A stretch of 32,109 nt of DNA from Chitinophagaceae bacterium (GTDB lineage Bacteria > Bacteroidota > Bacteroidia > Chitinophagales > Chitinophagaceae), in contig CANGSR010000008.1 of NCBI GenBank assembly GCA_947456055.1, forward strand, positions 1-32,109, written 5' to 3'. The translations under genes were made by a program, and so were the position numbers. Below are positions 2,407 through 27,492 of this stretch, piece after piece. The notes beneath the pieces were generated by a model. That model was not told the DNA's origin, made no database searches, and saw only the letters and a list, made by a program, of their open reading frames with translations. Numbering within the stretch: position 1 is the first letter of the stretch; each line of letters starts with the position of its first letter.

Positions 2407-3318
2407 TTAGTTTTCTAACGCTTCTAATGTGGTATCAAAGTTCTTTTTATGCTTATTAATGTCTTTTCTAATTTTTTTACATAAATTTTCGTCAAATGTT
2501 AGTCCATCTTGTCCGTATTGAAAATACTGCCTTCCTGTTTCATCCTTTACTAAAACAGAATGGGCAAATTTGTTTCTGATTGAATTTATTTCTTCTTTAT
2601 ATTCATTGCTATAATCATTTAATTTCAAGTATTCTAAAATTACACCCAGTGTCTTGATTTTATACTCAGCACTAAATACAAAATTATCCTTTGTTAATTT
2701 GGTGAATTTTGAATCTCGCTTCCATTCATCTACCAATTTAATTTTACGATTATAGAGTTCAATTATTTCATCATAAATGCCTAACGCCATAGTATTAAAG
2801 TCAATTTTGTCATTCTTCAAAGCCAAATTAATTATTTCCAACATTTGCATATCTAATGAACTAGTTTCTTGCATAATTAAACCTCTCATAGCCACAATAT
2901 GCTGAAACTTTTTTATTGTCAATCCAATTAGCTTTTTTAGATGTATAATCAGAACTTCTTGATGGTTTCCTTGGGTTTTTAACCCTCTAGTTTCAAGAAA
3001 GGTTATCCTATCTTTTTTAATGGAGTTCAAATCCTCAGCCTGAGCAGTATAAAACATTATCTCAGTAAGTATTGATTTATCTCTAACCGTATCTACTATT
3101 TCATTACCATTAATTCTGTTTAAATGGTAATCTGTTAAAATTAAATCAAATGAGTCATCCAACTCTTTGAAAAACTCTTCTTCTTTAGAAACAGTAATAA
3201 TAATTGGATTAAATCCTTCGTCTTTCAAAAAAGCATCAATTTCTTCAATATATTGATCTTCAACAAAAAGTTCTTCAATCTTATCATCCAGCCAAAGTAT
3301 TTTGTAATCTAATTTCAT
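2407..3318 (-). CDS. Receiver-domain protein with a C-terminal putative HEPN-like domain (R-x4-H)
   Basis: N-term ILWLDD, LILTDYHL (D63), IMFYTAQ (T91) = receiver; C-term alpha-rich with SIRNKFAHSVL (R248-H253). Starts 2 nt after the stop of the upstream ATPase gene. Confidence 0.75.
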   Translation of the reverse strand: MKLDYKILWLDDKIEELFVEDQYIEEIDAFLKDEGFNPIIITVSKEEEFFKELDDSFDLILTDYHLNRINGNEIVDTVRDKSILTEIMFYTAQAEDLNSIKKDRITFLETRGLKTQGNHQEVLIIHLKKLIGLTIKKFQHIVAMRGLIMQETSSLDMQMLEIINLALKNDKIDFNTMALGIYDEIIELYNRKIKLVDEWKRDSKFTKLTKDNFVFSAEYKIKTLGVILEYLKLNDYSNEYKEEINSIRNKFAHSVLVKDETGRQYFQYGQDGLTFDENLCKKIRKDINKHKKNFDTTLEALEN

Positions 3319-3320
3319 AA

Positions 3321-5639
3321 TTATATGGTGATTTTAAAAGTGGTTCCCGTATCTTTAGTAGATTCAACATCAATAGTTCCTTTTAATTTGCTTACTATAT
3401 CCTTTACTTGAAATAAGCCTATACCTGATCCATCAGTTGTAGTAAATCCAAGATCGAAAATCTTTGATATATTTTCCTTAGGAATACCAGTTTTTGCATT
3501 ATCACTAATTTCAAGCACTAAATTATTTTTTAATTTAGAAAATGTAAATGAAATTTTTTCTGCTCCAGCTTTTTCTGCATTAGATATGAAATTATCTATG
3601 AGTGTTGTAATTTCCAATGGTCTAATTGCCCTAACAAATCGGTTATTGCCTCGATTTATAATATTTATTCCTAGAGTGGTATCAATAATTTTATCGTTAG
3701 ATATGTAAATTTCATTGATGTATTCCGTAATGAATTCTACGATATCGATTTCAATTTCACTCGCTACCAAATTAAAATTTGCTTTGGTTATGAAATTTGC
3801 AATTGAATGAATCTTTGTTGTCTCCATTGAAATCACTGTAATGTACTTGCGAATTTGCTCATTCAATTGCATAGGATCTAACTCTCTTAACAATAACTTT
3901 AAGTTTCTTGTAATTCTACTGGATGAATGAAATATTTGGTGTTGTAAACCAATAATTCTTTCCTTATCTGTACCTAGTAAAGCACCCTTCCAAGACCCTT
4001 TTTTTATTTCTTTTTCTAGTTCAATTGCTAATGATTCGTTTTTAATTAGTTCTCTAAATGCGTCATCCTCTGCTTCATTTTTAATTTTCTCAAGATTAGA
4101 TATTTTATTTTGAGCTTTATCAATTACACTTAAAATCTCATGCTTTTCAAAATTATCTTGTTGAATTTTCTGCCTAATTTCTGATAGAATTCCTCTAGCT
4201 GAATTTTCTCCTTTTGATTCTAAAATTTGAAATAAATCAGGTGCATAATCAATCGATATAATATTTTTGGTTTTAGAAAGATTCATTACGATATTTTGCA
4301 ATGCTAGAACTTTGCTATTTTCATCAAGATTTATGTAATCATCTTCGGATAAATCTTTCCCCCAATCTGAAACTTCAATAATATACTTCTCTAATCGTTT
4401 AAGTGTAGTGTAAAACCATTCATATAAAGCATTGTATGTTTCTGTCTTTATTAAACCATCTCCTCTGCTTGAAGTTTCTCTTAATTCATCATTTGAGCCA
4501 TTAATATTAATATATCCAATAACTTCACGAGTACCTAGAAATCTAGTACGTCCTTGGGCTTTTCTATTATCCATTTTCAGTGGATCTTCTCCCCTTTCTC
4601 CATACGGATATATCCTCAATCCATTTTTGTAAATGAATATATGACCATAATCTACAGGAGGCACACCCATTCTTCTCGTAAATGTTGATTTTGAGGAGTG
4701 ATTCAAATAATAAATTGTAAAATCGACGCTTCCTAAAATTGGTAATGGATTTTCCTCAACTATACAATATACCAATTTACCTCCTTCCTGAAGCTCAGTT
4801 TTAACTATTGCCTTTTGAGTGTCTGATACTTGCGAAATAATCTTAGTTGTTTTAATATCTAAAGCTTCAAAAATTAAATTCTCAACTTCCCCATTAACAA
4901 CATCCTTATATATTGATTCTCGAGTAAGAGACTTCTTTAATCCTTCCTCTTTTACTTTATTATCCTCAGGTAATTCAGAATCGACTATTAAGCTAATTTT
5001 GAATACATCGTCACTATCCTTAGTATTAGGGTTTACTAGCTTTGCCAAGGCACTTTTCAATTTCAGCAACTTCTCTCTATCCCATGTACTTCTCAAGTTA
5101 GTTATCTCTAATACTGTTCCGTGATTTAAACGGTAATTGCTGTATTCAATTGTATCATGAATTACGCTTATATCTATAAATTCCTCTGTAATATCAGATT
5201 CGAATTTTTCCCAATCAGTGTATAATACTTCCGTTTTTGCATTTAATTCATTTTTCTTAGTCTCTAAATAAAGGTAGGAACCAAGTCTGTCACATGAAAA
5301 TCGTCCAATTCCTTTAGCACCGGCATATGCTCTTTTGGTGTTTATTTTATCTCTATAAGTATAATTATCCTCCTCTGTACCCTCTTTTTTAGCTGAATAT
5401 GCAAGAAACAGCCATTTATTTACTAAATCTTCATAATTCATGCCTTTGCCATTGTCACGAATAATTATTTTTTGTTTTTCAGTTTTGAGATTTTCAAATA
5501 TAATTTCAACTTTAGTTGAATGGGCATCATATGAATTTTTCACGAGTTCAAATACAGCAATGAAGTCATCATTTATTAGATCTCTTCCAATAATGTTCTT
5601 CAATGCAGAACTAATTTTAAATTGCAGTTTTGACTCCAT
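3321..5639 (-). CDS. Dual GHKL ATPase: N-terminal Hsp90/MORC-like ATPase plus C-terminal histidine-kinase-like HATPase_c
   Basis: N-term VFELVKNSYDA, IIRDNGKGM, AGAKGIGRFSCDRLG; C-term TLIDNFISNAEKAGA, ISDNAKTGI, IFDLGFTTTDGSGIGLFQVKDIV. Confidence 0.85.
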   Translation of the reverse strand: MESKLQFKISSALKNIIGRDLINDDFIAVFELVKNSYDAHSTKVEIIFENLKTEKQKIIIRDNGKGMNYEDLVNKWLFLAYSAKKEGTEEDNYTYRDKINTKRAYAGAKGIGRFSCDRLGSYLYLETKKNELNAKTEVLYTDWEKFESDITEEFIDISVIHDTIEYSNYRLNHGTVLEITNLRSTWDREKLLKLKSALAKLVNPNTKDSDDVFKISLIVDSELPEDNKVKEEGLKKSLTRESIYKDVVNGEVENLIFEALDIKTTKIISQVSDTQKAIVKTELQEGGKLVYCIVEENPLPILGSVDFTIYYLNHSSKSTFTRRMGVPPVDYGHIFIYKNGLRIYPYGERGEDPLKMDNRKAQGRTRFLGTREVIGYININGSNDELRETSSRGDGLIKTETYNALYEWFYTTLKRLEKYIIEVSDWGKDLSEDDYINLDENSKVLALQNIVMNLSKTKNIISIDYAPDLFQILESKGENSARGILSEIRQKIQQDNFEKHEILSVIDKAQNKISNLEKIKNEAEDDAFRELIKNESLAIELEKEIKKGSWKGALLGTDKERIIGLQHQIFHSSSRITRNLKLLLRELDPMQLNEQIRKYITVISMETTKIHSIANFITKANFNLVASEIEIDIVEFITEYINEIYISNDKIIDTTLGINIINRGNNRFVRAIRPLEITTLIDNFISNAEKAGAEKISFTFSKLKNNLVLEISDNAKTGIPKENISKIFDLGFTTTDGSGIGLFQVKDIVSKLKGTIDVESTKDTGTTFKITI

Positions 5640-6856
5640 TATACTAAATATTTTTTTAGAACCAGTCCGCTTTGTTCGCCAAAAAGAGGAGGAATGGCGT
5701 TTCCTATTTGTGTATATCTAGGTACTTCCTTAGTACGCATTTTACCACCTGATGTATACTTGCCTTTAAAATGGTAAGAATCGGGGAAAGATTGAATACG
5801 TGCATATTCCCTTACAGTCATTATTCTAGGTTCTATATAATGTATATAATCATCGGGCAAGCTTGTAATTGTTGGGCTTTTTTCATTTTCGTCTAACGGT
5901 ATAATTGTATGCTTTTTTATACCAAACTTCGTTCTTACTTCTTTATCTATTTCTTTATTTTTCTTACAGTTGCCTAGTATGTATTGAAATTTGCCAATTA
6001 TATCGGGTCTATGTTGTGGAAATCTATGGCTATCAACTATCGGGCTGTCAATACCTTTCCTCATTAATTTTTGGTAGGCACTTGTGGGGGTTGAGTATAT
6101 ACCTGCATTAAAACGCTTCGTATCTGGTGATTGAATTTCCCCATTGCTTTTCAATAAATCGGATATTGCATCACCTAGGTTAGTATTTTGGTCAATATTC
6201 CTTTCTGCAAGAAATTGTGTTTTATTAATTTTTAATTGTTTAAAAAACCATTCAGCAGTTTCTATTGATGAATTAGGAACACTTTTTCTTATTCCAACAA
6301 GAATAAATCTGACCCTTTTCTGAGGAATGCCATAGTCTCCAAAATTAACCAACTGACCATGTACATGATATCCCAACCGATCGAGCATTTCAGTTACATA
6401 TTGTGAATATGCAACACCTTTCGTCTTGTTTTTATCAAATTTCAATGTAAAGCCCCTAACATTTTCAAAGAAAATAATTTTAGGCTGTACGTACATAATG
6501 AACTTCAAATATGATTTAATGAGGCTATTTCTTAAATCGCTTTCACGCCTCTTTCCTGCTGTAGAGAAACCTTGACAAGGAGGGCCACCAGTTACTAATT
6601 CTACCTTACCTATTAGTTTTAGAAGGTCAGTTTTATGTTCTAACAATAATTGATTGATATCCCAAGCACGTTTTTGCAACCAAGATTCAGGCCATAAAAA
6701 ATGCTTTTTTTCAGTTATTAAATTATGTTCTAGAGTTTTAAACGCATCAGCATTTTTTTCTACTGCAAATAAACCCTGCCAACCAGCTTGATGAAGGCCT
6801 AATGATAATCCTCCACAACCAGCAAAAAGGTCAATATAAGTAGGTTTACTTTCCAT
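5639..6856 (-). CDS. DNA (cytosine-5-)-methyltransferase
   Basis: GCGGLSLGLHQAGW, VTGGPPCQGFSTAGKR, FFENVRGF, QKRVRFILVG, QIGNAIPP. ORF is open from 6889, but the ATG at 6856 (MESKPTYIDLFAGCGG) fits better with a -7-like box at 6893-6900. Confidence 0.93.
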   Translation of the reverse strand: MESKPTYIDLFAGCGGLSLGLHQAGWQGLFAVEKNADAFKTLEHNLITEKKHFLWPESWLQKRAWDINQLLLEHKTDLLKLIGKVELVTGGPPCQGFSTAGKRRESDLRNSLIKSYLKFIMYVQPKIIFFENVRGFTLKFDKNKTKGVAYSQYVTEMLDRLGYHVHGQLVNFGDYGIPQKRVRFILVGIRKSVPNSSIETAEWFFKQLKINKTQFLAERNIDQNTNLGDAISDLLKSNGEIQSPDTKRFNAGIYSTPTSAYQKLMRKGIDSPIVDSHRFPQHRPDIIGKFQYILGNCKKNKEIDKEVRTKFGIKKHTIIPLDENEKSPTITSLPDDYIHYIEPRIMTVREYARIQSFPDSYHFKGKYTSGGKMRTKEVPRYTQIGNAIPPLFGEQSGLVLKKYLV

Positions 6857-6892
6857 GATGATTCGCAATTTAGGAGAATTAGCAAACAATTA

Positions 6893-15444: not shown

Positions 15445-16041
15445 TTACGCTAAAGACGTTTTCCTATAAACCTCATTCAATGGCAAGTCGAATCCGATTG
15501 AATCAATAACCAAAGAAGAGTTACCATCTTCCGCATAAATTGGCTCGTCCCAGGTAGTTTCATTCTTTCTCCTGTTTATTTGAATAAATTTCCTGGTAGA
15601 ATCCACCAAAATATATTCCTTCAAAGAGGGTATTTGTTTATAGTAGTGAAATTTGAACGCCATATCATAACCCTTGGTTGAAGAACTCATTACTTCAATG
15701 ATTGCTGTTGGGTTGGTTAATGTATCAAATCCATTTTCTTTACGCTGTAGCTCTTCACATAAAATTGTCAGGTCTGGATACATGAAAGAATCAAAATCAG
15801 GTGTTGTGACCCTTAGGTCAGCCACCAAAATCTCACACTCTTTACCTTCCAAATAATTGCCAATCTTTCTCATCAGGTTGGCAACTATAAAGTTATGGTC
15901 GAAAGAAGCACCCGCCATATCATAAATTCTTCCTTCGAAGTATTCATGTTTTTCTAGACTTCTTACCTCTATTTCGAGATAATCATCAGGTGTTATATAA
16001 CTAACTGCTGGAAATGCCATAAATGCAGATTTATGATACAA
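15445..16041 (-). CDS. Uma2-family (DUF820) putative PD-(D/E)XK nuclease
   Basis: YEIEVRSLEKHEYFEGRIYDMAGAS-type N-terminus, YPDLTILCEE, TAIIEVMSSSTKGYD, YYKQIPSLKEYILVDS. A start at 16020 (MAFPAV) is also plausible. Confidence 0.85.
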   Translation of the reverse strand: MYHKSAFMAFPAVSYITPDDYLEIEVRSLEKHEYFEGRIYDMAGASFDHNFIVANLMRKIGNYLEGKECEILVADLRVTTPDFDSFMYPDLTILCEELQRKENGFDTLTNPTAIIEVMSSSTKGYDMAFKFHYYKQIPSLKEYILVDSTRKFIQINRRKNETTWDEPIYAEDGNSSLVIDSIGFDLPLNEVYRKTSLA

Positions 16042-18335: not shown

Positions 18336-18770
18336 ATGGGAGTAAACAAAGTTATTGAAAGCAATACTCTGAAAAATAAATTTGTCTTATTTACGGGTAA
18401 TAATAATTTTAACCTTGTGGCAAATGCCCGTAAAGGTATAGGATCCGATGTGTTCTACGACTTTGCTGCCTTGATCAAAATGTCTGAAAAGAATCTTGCG
18501 CAAATTATTCATCTATCTACACGCACAATTAGTAATTATAAAGCGAACAAAAAATCGCTTGAACCTTTACAAAGTGAGCATTTGCTTAAGCTGATTTCCT
18601 TATATCAATTAGGAGAAGAACTTTTTGGCAACCTAGACGAATTTAATTATTGGCTACAAAAGCCGTTTTGGAATAGACCTGAAAAACCAATAGAGTGGCT
18701 AATAACACCGGGGGGCGTAGATTTGGTAAGGGACGAATTGATGAGATTGGCATATGGCGATGCTTTATAA
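18336..18770 (+). CDS. Xre/MbcA/ParS-type (DUF2384) antitoxin
   Basis: Size and architecture (HTH-like LAQIIHLSTRTISNYKANKKSL, C-term NYWLQKPFW...GVDLVRDELMRLAYG) and position upstream of a RES-domain gene. Confidence 0.85.
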   Translation: MGVNKVIESNTLKNKFVLFTGNNNFNLVANARKGIGSDVFYDFAALIKMSEKNLAQIIHLSTRTISNYKANKKSLEPLQSEHLLKLISLYQLGEELFGNLDEFNYWLQKPFWNRPEKPIEWLITPGGVDLVRDELMRLAYGDAL

Positions 18771-18881
18771 ATTTTACCCATGCTTCTTGGGAAAATCAAA
18801 TTTCTTTTCAAATAAGGTAACGCTACTTTTTCATCCAATCATTTTCATCGTACTAATTTCGATTCCAATTAAGAAGTAAAC

Positions 18882-19352
18882 ATGTTCGTATACAAAATTG
18901 CAAATAAAAATTACGCAAGTAAATTTGTTGCATCCGGAATTGACGGTCGATGGTCATCAGGAGGAAGATTGGTTATTTATACGGCCGAATCAATAGCTTT
19001 ATCTTTTTTGGAGAGTATGATAAGGCGGCATGGAATAGGTTTTAATAATGATTTTAAGACAATTCTTATTCATATCCCAGACGATTTACAAATTGAAAAA
19101 GTTGAGCTGCATGAATTGCCCAAAGGCTGGAATAACTATGGTGATTATGCTATTAGCCAATCCTTTGGTAATAAATGGTGCGATGATTTAAGGTCACCAC
19201 TTTTAAAAGTACCGTCAGTATTATTGCCAGATTCATTCAATTATGTAATCAATACTGTACATACTGATTTTTCAAAAATAGAAGTAGCCGGAATCACTGA
19301 CTTAACGCCAGACCCTAGAATCGAAGACATTTTGAAAAACTATAAAAAATAG
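18882..19352 (+). CDS. RES-domain toxin (NAD+-degrading family)
   Basis: GRWSSGGRLVIYTAESIALSFLESMIRR RES signature; follows Xre-type antitoxin. Confidence 0.87.
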   Translation: MFVYKIANKNYASKFVASGIDGRWSSGGRLVIYTAESIALSFLESMIRRHGIGFNNDFKTILIHIPDDLQIEKVELHELPKGWNNYGDYAISQSFGNKWCDDLRSPLLKVPSVLLPDSFNYVINTVHTDFSKIEVAGITDLTPDPRIEDILKNYKK

Positions 19353-25201: not shown

Positions 25202-25269
25202 CGAGAAAAATGCGCTATAGGCTAACATGAAATCGTATTGTTGATGGTCCAATCTTTCCACATTTCCCG

Positions 25270-25378
25270 TACTGGTCGAAGGGTCTCCCTTCGTCCTTTT
25301 ACATGCAAGCGTCCTGCTTCTGTGTCGCAAGCGGGACGCTTGCATGTAAAAGGACCGAGCGAGACGCTCGGACCAGTA
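25270..25378. repeat. Palindromic four-way-junction (cloverleaf) element, intact copy
   Basis: Outer stem TACTGGT/ACCAGTA; arms CGAAGGG-TCT-CCCTTCG, 26-bp long arm with 9-nt loop, CCGAGCG-AGA-CGCTCGG, no unpaired junction bases. Confidence 0.9.
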
Positions 25379-26136
25379 GTTGGAGCATTAGGTGTTTTTA
25401 ATGAAAGAATTGGGAAACCCCTTGGGAAACTCGGAACTTATTTGGCAGAGAAAAATCCCACAAATAAGTTGGGGTTAAAGAGTATACCGAAACATGTTTC
25501 ATGTGAAACTTTCCTATGCGACCCAACTTATAAGGAAAAGATTAAACAGCAAAATTCACAAGTTATGCTGGAGGCTATTTCTCTGGTTTTTCCAATAGGG
25601 GAGGCAGCCGAGCCAGTTGAGGCTATCGCCCCTAAATTAGGTTCTAAATTAACGTTTTCAGAAGTTGATAATTTGGCTGCCAAAAGTATTTCAAAAGCTA
25701 ATAATACTGGAATATTAAAAAAAATAACGCCAAATATAACTGTAGTAGAAGAAGATGGCTTTGCTATTATCCGGGATGCAAATCAAAGGCCAGCTGGAAA
25801 AGGTTATTTATATAATGGGGAATTGCATCTTACAATCACCACCAAGGGAACTACTCTTGAGGGTAGTGGAAGAGAAGTTTTAAATGCCATTTTAATTTTG
25901 TAAATACTAATTTTGATGAGGTTACTGCAATTAGAGGTACATGACGAGAAGTATTGCCGGATAATCTGGAAACTTTTAATAAACTAGTTAATCAATTTGG
26001 CGAAAATGGAGCGGCAATTAATACTTTTACCGGAAAGGTGGCAAATGAATTAGGCTTTTCGAAAGTGCAAATGGGAGAGACAATAAAAGATGCTAAAGGC
26101 TACTATATTTCTGTTGATGTTCTTTTTAAAAAATAA
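25379..26136 (+). pseudogene. Remnant of an Rhs/polymorphic-toxin C-terminal region (frameshift and in-frame stop)
   Basis: ORF 25238-25903 stops at TAA 25901; shifting frame at the T-run near 25890 gives ...FNFVNTNFDEVTAIRGT*REVLPDNLETFNKLVNQFGENGAAINTFTGKVANELGF... continuous with ORF 25954-26136. Confidence 0.65.
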
Positions 26137-26838: not shown

Positions 26839-27492
26839 ATGGATAATAAAATAAAATGGAATCAGATAAAAACCGTGAGCGGGTATGGAACTGGCTTGCC
26901 TGAGACAATCCAAAGGTTGATTTCGCCAATTGAAGCTGAGCGAAAAAGAGCATCTAATGGCTTGGACAATGTTGTTGTAGTGCAAAGTACTCTTTATGAA
27001 GCGGCCTATTACGTTATTGAACCTATTTTAGAGCTTTTAGAGAAAGATTATACCGTAGATAGGTTTGAGCCATTAACCGTACTTGCAGAGATAGCTCTTG
27101 GCTGGGGAGGAAAAAAAGAAATAATTTTGCAGGAATGTGGTGAGCAAATTCTTCTAGAAAAGGCATGTAGAAATAAACTGAAGGAGTTAAAGCCTAGAAT
27201 TGAAAAGATAGTAACATGTACTCAGAAAGAGCGAGAAGAAAAAGATTGCATTCTTGAAACCATTGATGAATTTTGGCAACGAGAATTACATAGATTTGCC
27301 CCAGGCGGATATAAAATATATGACGTAATAGAGGTTCTAAAAATTCTGAAAGCGCAAGGAGTTTCTCGACACGATGTTTATCAATCCCTTGAAAGTGAGC
27401 TAAGAGTATCTAAAGTTGCTAAGCAGAGCGTGGATTGGATTTTAGATATAATGGATATTTTAAATAAATATAGTGATGGGATATGGCAATAA
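26839..27492 (+). CDS. Putative HEAT-like immunity protein without an intact toxin partner
   Basis: IKTVSGYGTGLPETIQRLISPIEAERKRASNGLDNVVVVQSTLYEAAYYVIEPILELL resembles HEAT-like polymorphic-toxin immunity proteins; sandwiched between two Rhs-core fragments. Confidence 0.55.
   Translation: MDNKIKWNQIKTVSGYGTGLPETIQRLISPIEAERKRASNGLDNVVVVQSTLYEAAYYVIEPILELLEKDYTVDRFEPLTVLAEIALGWGGKKEIILQECGEQILLEKACRNKLKELKPRIEKIVTCTQKEREEKDCILETIDEFWQRELHRFAPGGYKIYDVIEVLKILKAQGVSRHDVYQSLESELRVSKVAKQSVDWILDIMDILNKYSDGIWQ

Follow-up and report, generated by a model that had tools for sequence, protein, structure and literature searches.

HEPN RNases are dimers with an Rx4-6H site and metal-independent cleavage, MutL/MORC-type GHKL clamps work on DNA and undergo a conformational change when they bind ATP, and histidine kinases hand phosphate to receiver aspartates. 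In Detocs, the best-described effector is an ATP-cleaving PNP domain. Across the HEPN superfamily, the Rx4-6H motif has a polar residue after the arginine and is preceded by an acidic residue, often as Ex3[KR]; in the text of one study of HEPN domains (PMC3710099) the word receiver occurs once, for a transmembrane domain bearing a receiver in place of HEPN. A kinase/regulator pair found near C5 methylases, HEF_HK (PF19191) and Response_reg_2 (PF19192), was reported by Bellieny-Rabelo 2021 (PMC8011034), whose text does not contain the term HEPN and describes no HEPN output. In VcSduA, a GHKL-nuclease fusion, the ATPase is required for phage defence (PMC12137116). A figure legend of DefensePredictor names HATPase and REC domains among its predicted systems, and, as far as that legend goes, some overlap with the cassette described below may exist.

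The locus analyzed here lies in a 32,109-nucleotide stretch of DNA from a Chitinophagaceae bacterium (the window) and consists of three minus-strand genes: a putative C5-cytosine DNA methyltransferase (416 aa, 5639..6889), a soluble sensor kinase (772 aa, 3321..5639) and a 303-aa protein that joins a receiver to a HEPN-like domain (2407..3318; supported by the ORF listing, homologues and cassette linkage). The methyltransferase matched Pfam DNA_methylase (5.3e-56) as well as DNMT1, HaeIII and HhaI, has a TTG start as listed, and contains conserved PPCQ and ENV motifs. The kinase carries two Bergerat folds, arranged as an N-terminal HATPase_c_3 domain (MutL/HgiDII/paraMORC-like), a linker, a phospho-histidine helix and a C-terminal HATPase_c, with the C-terminal part forming a histidine-kinase core. 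This assignment was based on Pfam matches at 8.8e-23 and 7.8e-24 (the latter to HATPase_c), MutL and histidine-kinase matches in the PDB, and a BbrUII/HgiDII match (NF050001, 6.6e-20) restricted to residues 29-200. Both ATP-binding folds are conserved among cassette kinases, and the putative phospho-accepting histidine H567 in an HQ motif (3939..3941, minus strand) is invariant in 67/67 of them and in 20/20 in A3.

The order methyltransferase, kinase, receiver-HEPN was found in 67/67 testable loci spanning many phyla, and the cognate histidine kinase gene is directly upstream of the receiver-HEPN gene. These came from 75 loci, of which seven were cut by a contig edge and one had a split kinase with a methyltransferase-cluster gene upstream. 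The median gene spacings of -1 and -4 bp indicate an operon, and the divergence of the three proteins was correlated (Mantel r 0.43-0.70, above all 999 permutations). No restriction-enzyme or nuclease domain was found in the three genes with Pfam, PADLOC or NCBIfam. Recurrent but variable neighbours were Vsr, HNH_2, a small HTH gene and a calcineurin-like phosphatase, with Vsr or HNH present in a minority of loci only. The phosphatase, a possible accessory, lies directly downstream of receiver-HEPN in L048, L078, L084, L090, L092 and L098, mostly from Campylobacterota. The anatomy of the cassette is well supported, and the invariance of H567, D63, R248 and H253 and the strict linkage are established here.

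When we compared this arrangement with the described systems, each shared part of it. The PF19191/PF19192 pair is likewise a two-gene kinase/regulator unit with a double-HATPase soluble kinase, a frequent C5 methylase, and Vsr and HNH_2 neighbours. Membership in that pair was rejected, since neither window protein matched either Pfam family at E<=1; the PF19192 proteins recovered in this analysis are about 525-575 aa long and have no conserved Rx4-6H, whereas the window regulator has 303 aa. VcSduA/paraMORC3 Shedu and BbrUII/HgiDII-type restriction proteins have an N-terminal GHKL ATPase as sensing engine in common with the window kinase, but VcSduA carries its nuclease in the same chain, whereas the window kinase joins its ATPase to a histidine-kinase core and leaves the effector role to a second protein. 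Detocs (PMC11249213) follows the same design, an immune system of two-component type with three genes and an effector of its own, while the window cassette has no PNP domain by Pfam and includes a DNA methyltransferase. With type II restriction-modification the cassette shares a predicted DNA methyltransferase, but no restriction endonuclease was found among its three genes. Known HEPN RNase effectors (Anantharaman 2013, PMC3710099; the nearest tested being RiboL-PSP and Swt1) share the RNx3H motif and the acidic helix-1 residue, and may share the helical bundle, but the window HEPN is fused to a receiver and comes with a dedicated histidine kinase. No PADLOC model matched the receiver-HEPN protein, and the kinase was matched at noise level only.

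The first-pass annotation, which considered the regulator without the methyltransferase and kinase genes, had placed an R-x4-H motif of HEPN type, RNKFAH, at 2560-2577. The 303-aa product of the minus-strand ORF 2407-3318 contains EEINSIRNKFAHSVLV, and the motif coordinates are exact, as the R248 codon in SIRNKFAHSVL occupies 2577-2575 and the H253 codon 2562-2560. A bare Rx4H occurred in 18% of shuffles of the protein and in 42/153 background ORFs of similar size; the motif alone therefore proves nothing, and a test of homology was needed. The more specific RNx3H was found in 1.3% of shuffles and 3/153 background ORFs versus 77/81 family members (R[ND]x3H in 80/81), which rules out a chance origin.

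A scan of the genome collection for receiver-HEPN homologues yielded 73 loci. Many of the hosts are metagenome bins, and their range takes in Bacteroidota, Campylobacterota, Clostridia, Verrucomicrobia, Patescibacteria and the archaeon Methanimicrococcus, among others. The motif was retained in each of five homologues with 27-31% identity that came from genomes of the same class. In an alignment of 72 homologues, with pairwise identities averaging 30% and going down to 17% and with 55 clusters at the 60% level, the two residues whose lack of conservation would have spoken against the annotation, R248 and H253, were invariant (72/72), and the polar position 249 was N in 69/72 and D in 3/72. The full set of invariant residues comprised M1, Y5, I7, L8, W9, D58, D63, R79, Y90, R145, G146, R248, H253 and R284, of which R145-G146 fall within the long linker/HEPN helix 1. 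An acidic residue was also conserved upstream, at D156 (2851..2853, minus strand; D 68/72, E 4/72), in the segment that aligned with helix 1 of RiboL-PSP HEPN, where RiboL-PSP likewise has an acidic residue.

We assigned the HEPN-like output domain to about residues 119-303 (2407..2964, minus strand, stop codon included) on the basis of a structure model, profile comparison with controls, and HEPN-clan Pfam matches in homologues. In the HMM search proposed earlier, the window protein itself had no HEPN match in Pfam, but single family members matched HEPN-clan/Abi families weakly, namely Swt1 (8 members, best 0.0012), MAE_28990 (6), RiboL-PSP (3, best 1.1e-5), Cthe2314 (2), Abi_2 (2) and DUF4145 (1). 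The RiboL-PSP matches call for caution, as one of them had its best stretch beyond the HEPN region. For profile comparison by hhalign, two independent HEPN sets, RiboL-PSP and Swt1, were built from genome hits. The profile of the C-terminal half reached 30% probability against RiboL-PSP and 18% against the Swt1 HEPN set, compared with 21% for the positive control of RiboL-PSP versus Swt1 HEPN. None of 11 negative controls (the profile in reverse, eight column shuffles, the receiver half and the kinase linker) exceeded 0.3%. Judged by these profiles, the C-terminal half is as close to the two HEPN families as they are to each other. At a permissive setting, the RiboL-PSP alignment placed MRGLIMQETSSLDMQMLEI on HEPN helix 1, including its acidic residue, and RNKFAH on RHKIAH, with both landmarks collinear.

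The confident AlphaFold (AF2) model built from 72 sequences (pLDDT 88, pTM 0.79) replaced a poor first model from 6 sequences (pLDDT 69). It consists of the receiver, a continuous helix from 119 to 168, further helices, a helix from 237 to 252 with R248 to H253 at its end, a short hairpin and a last helix, so that the C-terminal half, predicted by eye as helical in the first-pass annotation, is indeed modelled as an almost all-helical bundle apart from the hairpin. Displayed Foldseek matches of the model were receiver-driven and included no HEPN structure, and those against the PDB and viral models were also dominated by receivers; since the displayed matches were receivers, Foldseek was uninformative on the HEPN half. 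A PDB sequence search with the family profile likewise returned receivers and no HEPN among its significant matches. With a profile match to HEPN families far above the controls and R248 and H253 invariant, the earlier proposal of a HEPN-type output domain held up: homology of the C-terminal half to HEPN appears very probable, though the similarity is remote, and HEPN catalysis, that is, RNase activity, is probable as well, at somewhat lower confidence.

The receiver domain covers residues 1-118 (2965..3318, minus strand) and was recognized by Foldseek matches to REC structures and by Pfam Response_reg (E=1.3e-6), where its 29.0 bits fall marginally below the 30.2 cut-off, as in a diverged receiver. 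Response_reg matched 52/72 family members at E<=1, and NCBIfam returned generic receivers with no further informative match. The expected phospho-acceptor aspartate D63 (3130..3132, minus strand) is invariant (72/72), as are an acidic residue (D/E) at position 11 and S/T at position 91; position 12 is occupied by D in 57 of the 72 sequences and by N in the other 15. No conserved lysine was found after beta-5 in the 72-sequence alignment, a nearby column containing Arg in 42/72. A receiver without the active-site lysine is a pseudo-receiver by strict definition (PMC12632262), and the window receiver falls under this term because that lysine is not conserved. Control of the HEPN protein by phosphorylation is therefore likely rather than certain.

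The cassette has a GC content of 28-33%, against 42-47% on one flank and about 40% on the other, and a search of 34 further genomes of the genus, not all of them complete, did not find it (present in 1/35). In relatives, trmB and MGMT, which adjoin the cassette in the window, are still together without the cassette beside them. The window copy is thus an AT-rich, accessory, island-like element. Elsewhere in the window are an Xre/ParS-type antitoxin gene and, after it, a RES-domain toxin gene (18336-19352), a Uma2-family putative nuclease (15445-16041) and two ORFs with no Pfam match (25238-25903 and 26839-27492). Kinase relatives occurred on 55 IMG/VR contigs. Receiver-HEPN is encoded on 16 of these, each time with RNx3H, and on 15 of the 16 the methyltransferase lies within a few genes; because IMG/VR contigs can include prophage together with flanking host DNA, this shows association rather than phage origin. 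Receiver-HEPN was found neither in named phage records nor, by its own pattern, in viral contigs, although the kinase search did recover such contigs. A plasmid search with the receiver protein gave only a remote Cetobacterium match over the receiver part, and a promoter pattern search was uninformative, with 71 matches versus 72 expected.

Examination of related loci showed that the third gene can differ. In six loci, a methyltransferase and a kinase of this kind precede a receiver-like protein and a caspase-like protein (L213 5139-6549, L214 5480-6854 and L215 4043-5411 from genomes; L223 10553-11891 and L236 9529-10906 from IMG/VR contigs; and L274 7126-8456), which indicates that effectors have been exchanged. 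The kinase of L215, like that of L079, is split in two frames beside cassette genes that are open or nearly so, which could reflect decay or sequencing error. GHG and C-x-SN motifs are invariant in the caspase-like protein of the first five loci. A profile built from these five proteins retrieved caspase-6 and caspase-2 below significance (best caspase E 0.45), and in the caspase-6 alignment GHG lay opposite caspase SHG and C-x-SN opposite caspase ACRGN; as the sequence match alone is not significant, the caspase-like call rests on the conserved HG/C dyad. An analogous set on a Stenotrophomonas rhizophila plasmid comprises a methyltransferase, a GHKL kinase, a receiver and an SHG/SCGTA protein, and in L239, L260 and L264 the genes downstream of a distant kinase relative encode a receiver, an HNH endonuclease and a large protein that resembles a methyltransferase. 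On a Burkholderia plasmid (L275 3610-8779), a Type I M subunit, a GHKL-type ATP-binding protein, a response regulator and a metallo-beta-lactamase-fold hydrolase stand in a row. The related loci look as one would expect if the sensor is conserved and the effectors can be swapped.

Taken with the methyltransferase and kinase genes, on which the case for a receiver-controlled HEPN hinges, these data lead us to favour, with reasonable though not high confidence, a reading in which receiver-HEPN serves as effector in an immune cassette of three genes that resembles restriction-modification, with phosphotransfer to an RNase in place of the restriction enzyme. The C5 methyltransferase would mark host DNA at target sites, and the kinase's N-terminal GHKL/MORC-like clamp, rather than powering a nuclease fused to it, would engage foreign DNA that has no mark. 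The C-terminal histidine-kinase core would then autophosphorylate H567, and the phosphate would pass to D63 of the receiver. The signal may travel along the long helix 119-168 to rearrange or dimerize the HEPN domains, whose composite R248/H253 sites would cut RNA and bring about dormancy or abortive infection. Methylation sensing, phosphotransfer, RNase activity and the anti-phage outcome are all predicted steps of this scheme. The first-pass annotation had spoken of an unusual toxin effector; the protein is best read as the effector of such a cassette and not as a stand-alone toxin.

Among other explanations, the one that deserves most weight, doubtful as it is, keeps the same cassette but removes the phospho-switch: the kinase would be an ATP-driven clamp that contacts a pseudo-receiver and activates HEPN allosterically. 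The missing active-site lysine would fit this, and the strict pairing and overlap of the kinase and receiver genes suggest a complex, but H567, D63, the acidic residue at 11 and Ser/Thr 91 are kept in every member, position 12 stays D or N throughout (57 and 15), and both ATP-binding folds are intact. It is unlikely, by a further step, that receiver-HEPN is catalytically dead or purely regulatory, binding protein or nucleic acid to regulate the methyltransferase operon or host genes. Non-enzymatic HEPN families, such as part of the MtlR family and nucleotidyltransferase-linked HEPN, lose Rx4-6H wholly or partly (PMC3710099), whereas here R and H are kept in 72/72 sequences at about 30% identity, and exchange with caspase-like proteins suggests an effector role; that such families exist, that response regulators are usually regulatory, and that HTH genes lie upstream in some loci speak on the other side.

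An epigenetic two-component system that senses methylation for normal gene control and not for defence would be in keeping with the cytosolic sensor and its constant linkage to a methyltransferase. We nevertheless consider this improbable, given the patchy presence (1/35 congeneric genomes) in an AT-rich island, the Vsr and HNH neighbours, the members on contigs of a viral collection and the plasmid-borne relative. Least probable of all is a toxin-antitoxin module in which HEPN would be the toxin and the antitoxin role would fall to the kinase or methyltransferase: HEPN domains often serve as toxins (PMC3710099), but the cassette has no small antitoxin or MNT gene, the residues for kinase and receiver chemistry are kept, and effector exchange leaves the kinase and methyltransferase families constant.

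More broadly, the chances seem about even that these loci represent a class of restriction-modification analogues in which a MORC-like sensor kinase reads DNA methylation and passes phosphate to exchangeable effectors: a HEPN RNase in the window type, a caspase-like protease in the sister type and probably an HNH nuclease in the distant type. If the proposed reading is correct, restriction-modification and two-component signalling would be joined in one system, in which unmodified DNA is not cut and cell-wide RNA cleavage is triggered instead. It would give a concrete output to kinase/regulator pairs that have been known in the open literature since 2021 only as 'TCS-like, linked to R-M', and would add a histidine-kinase/receiver pair as a switch for HEPN RNases. 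Effector exchange would then offer a direct route to test what MORC-type ATPases sense.
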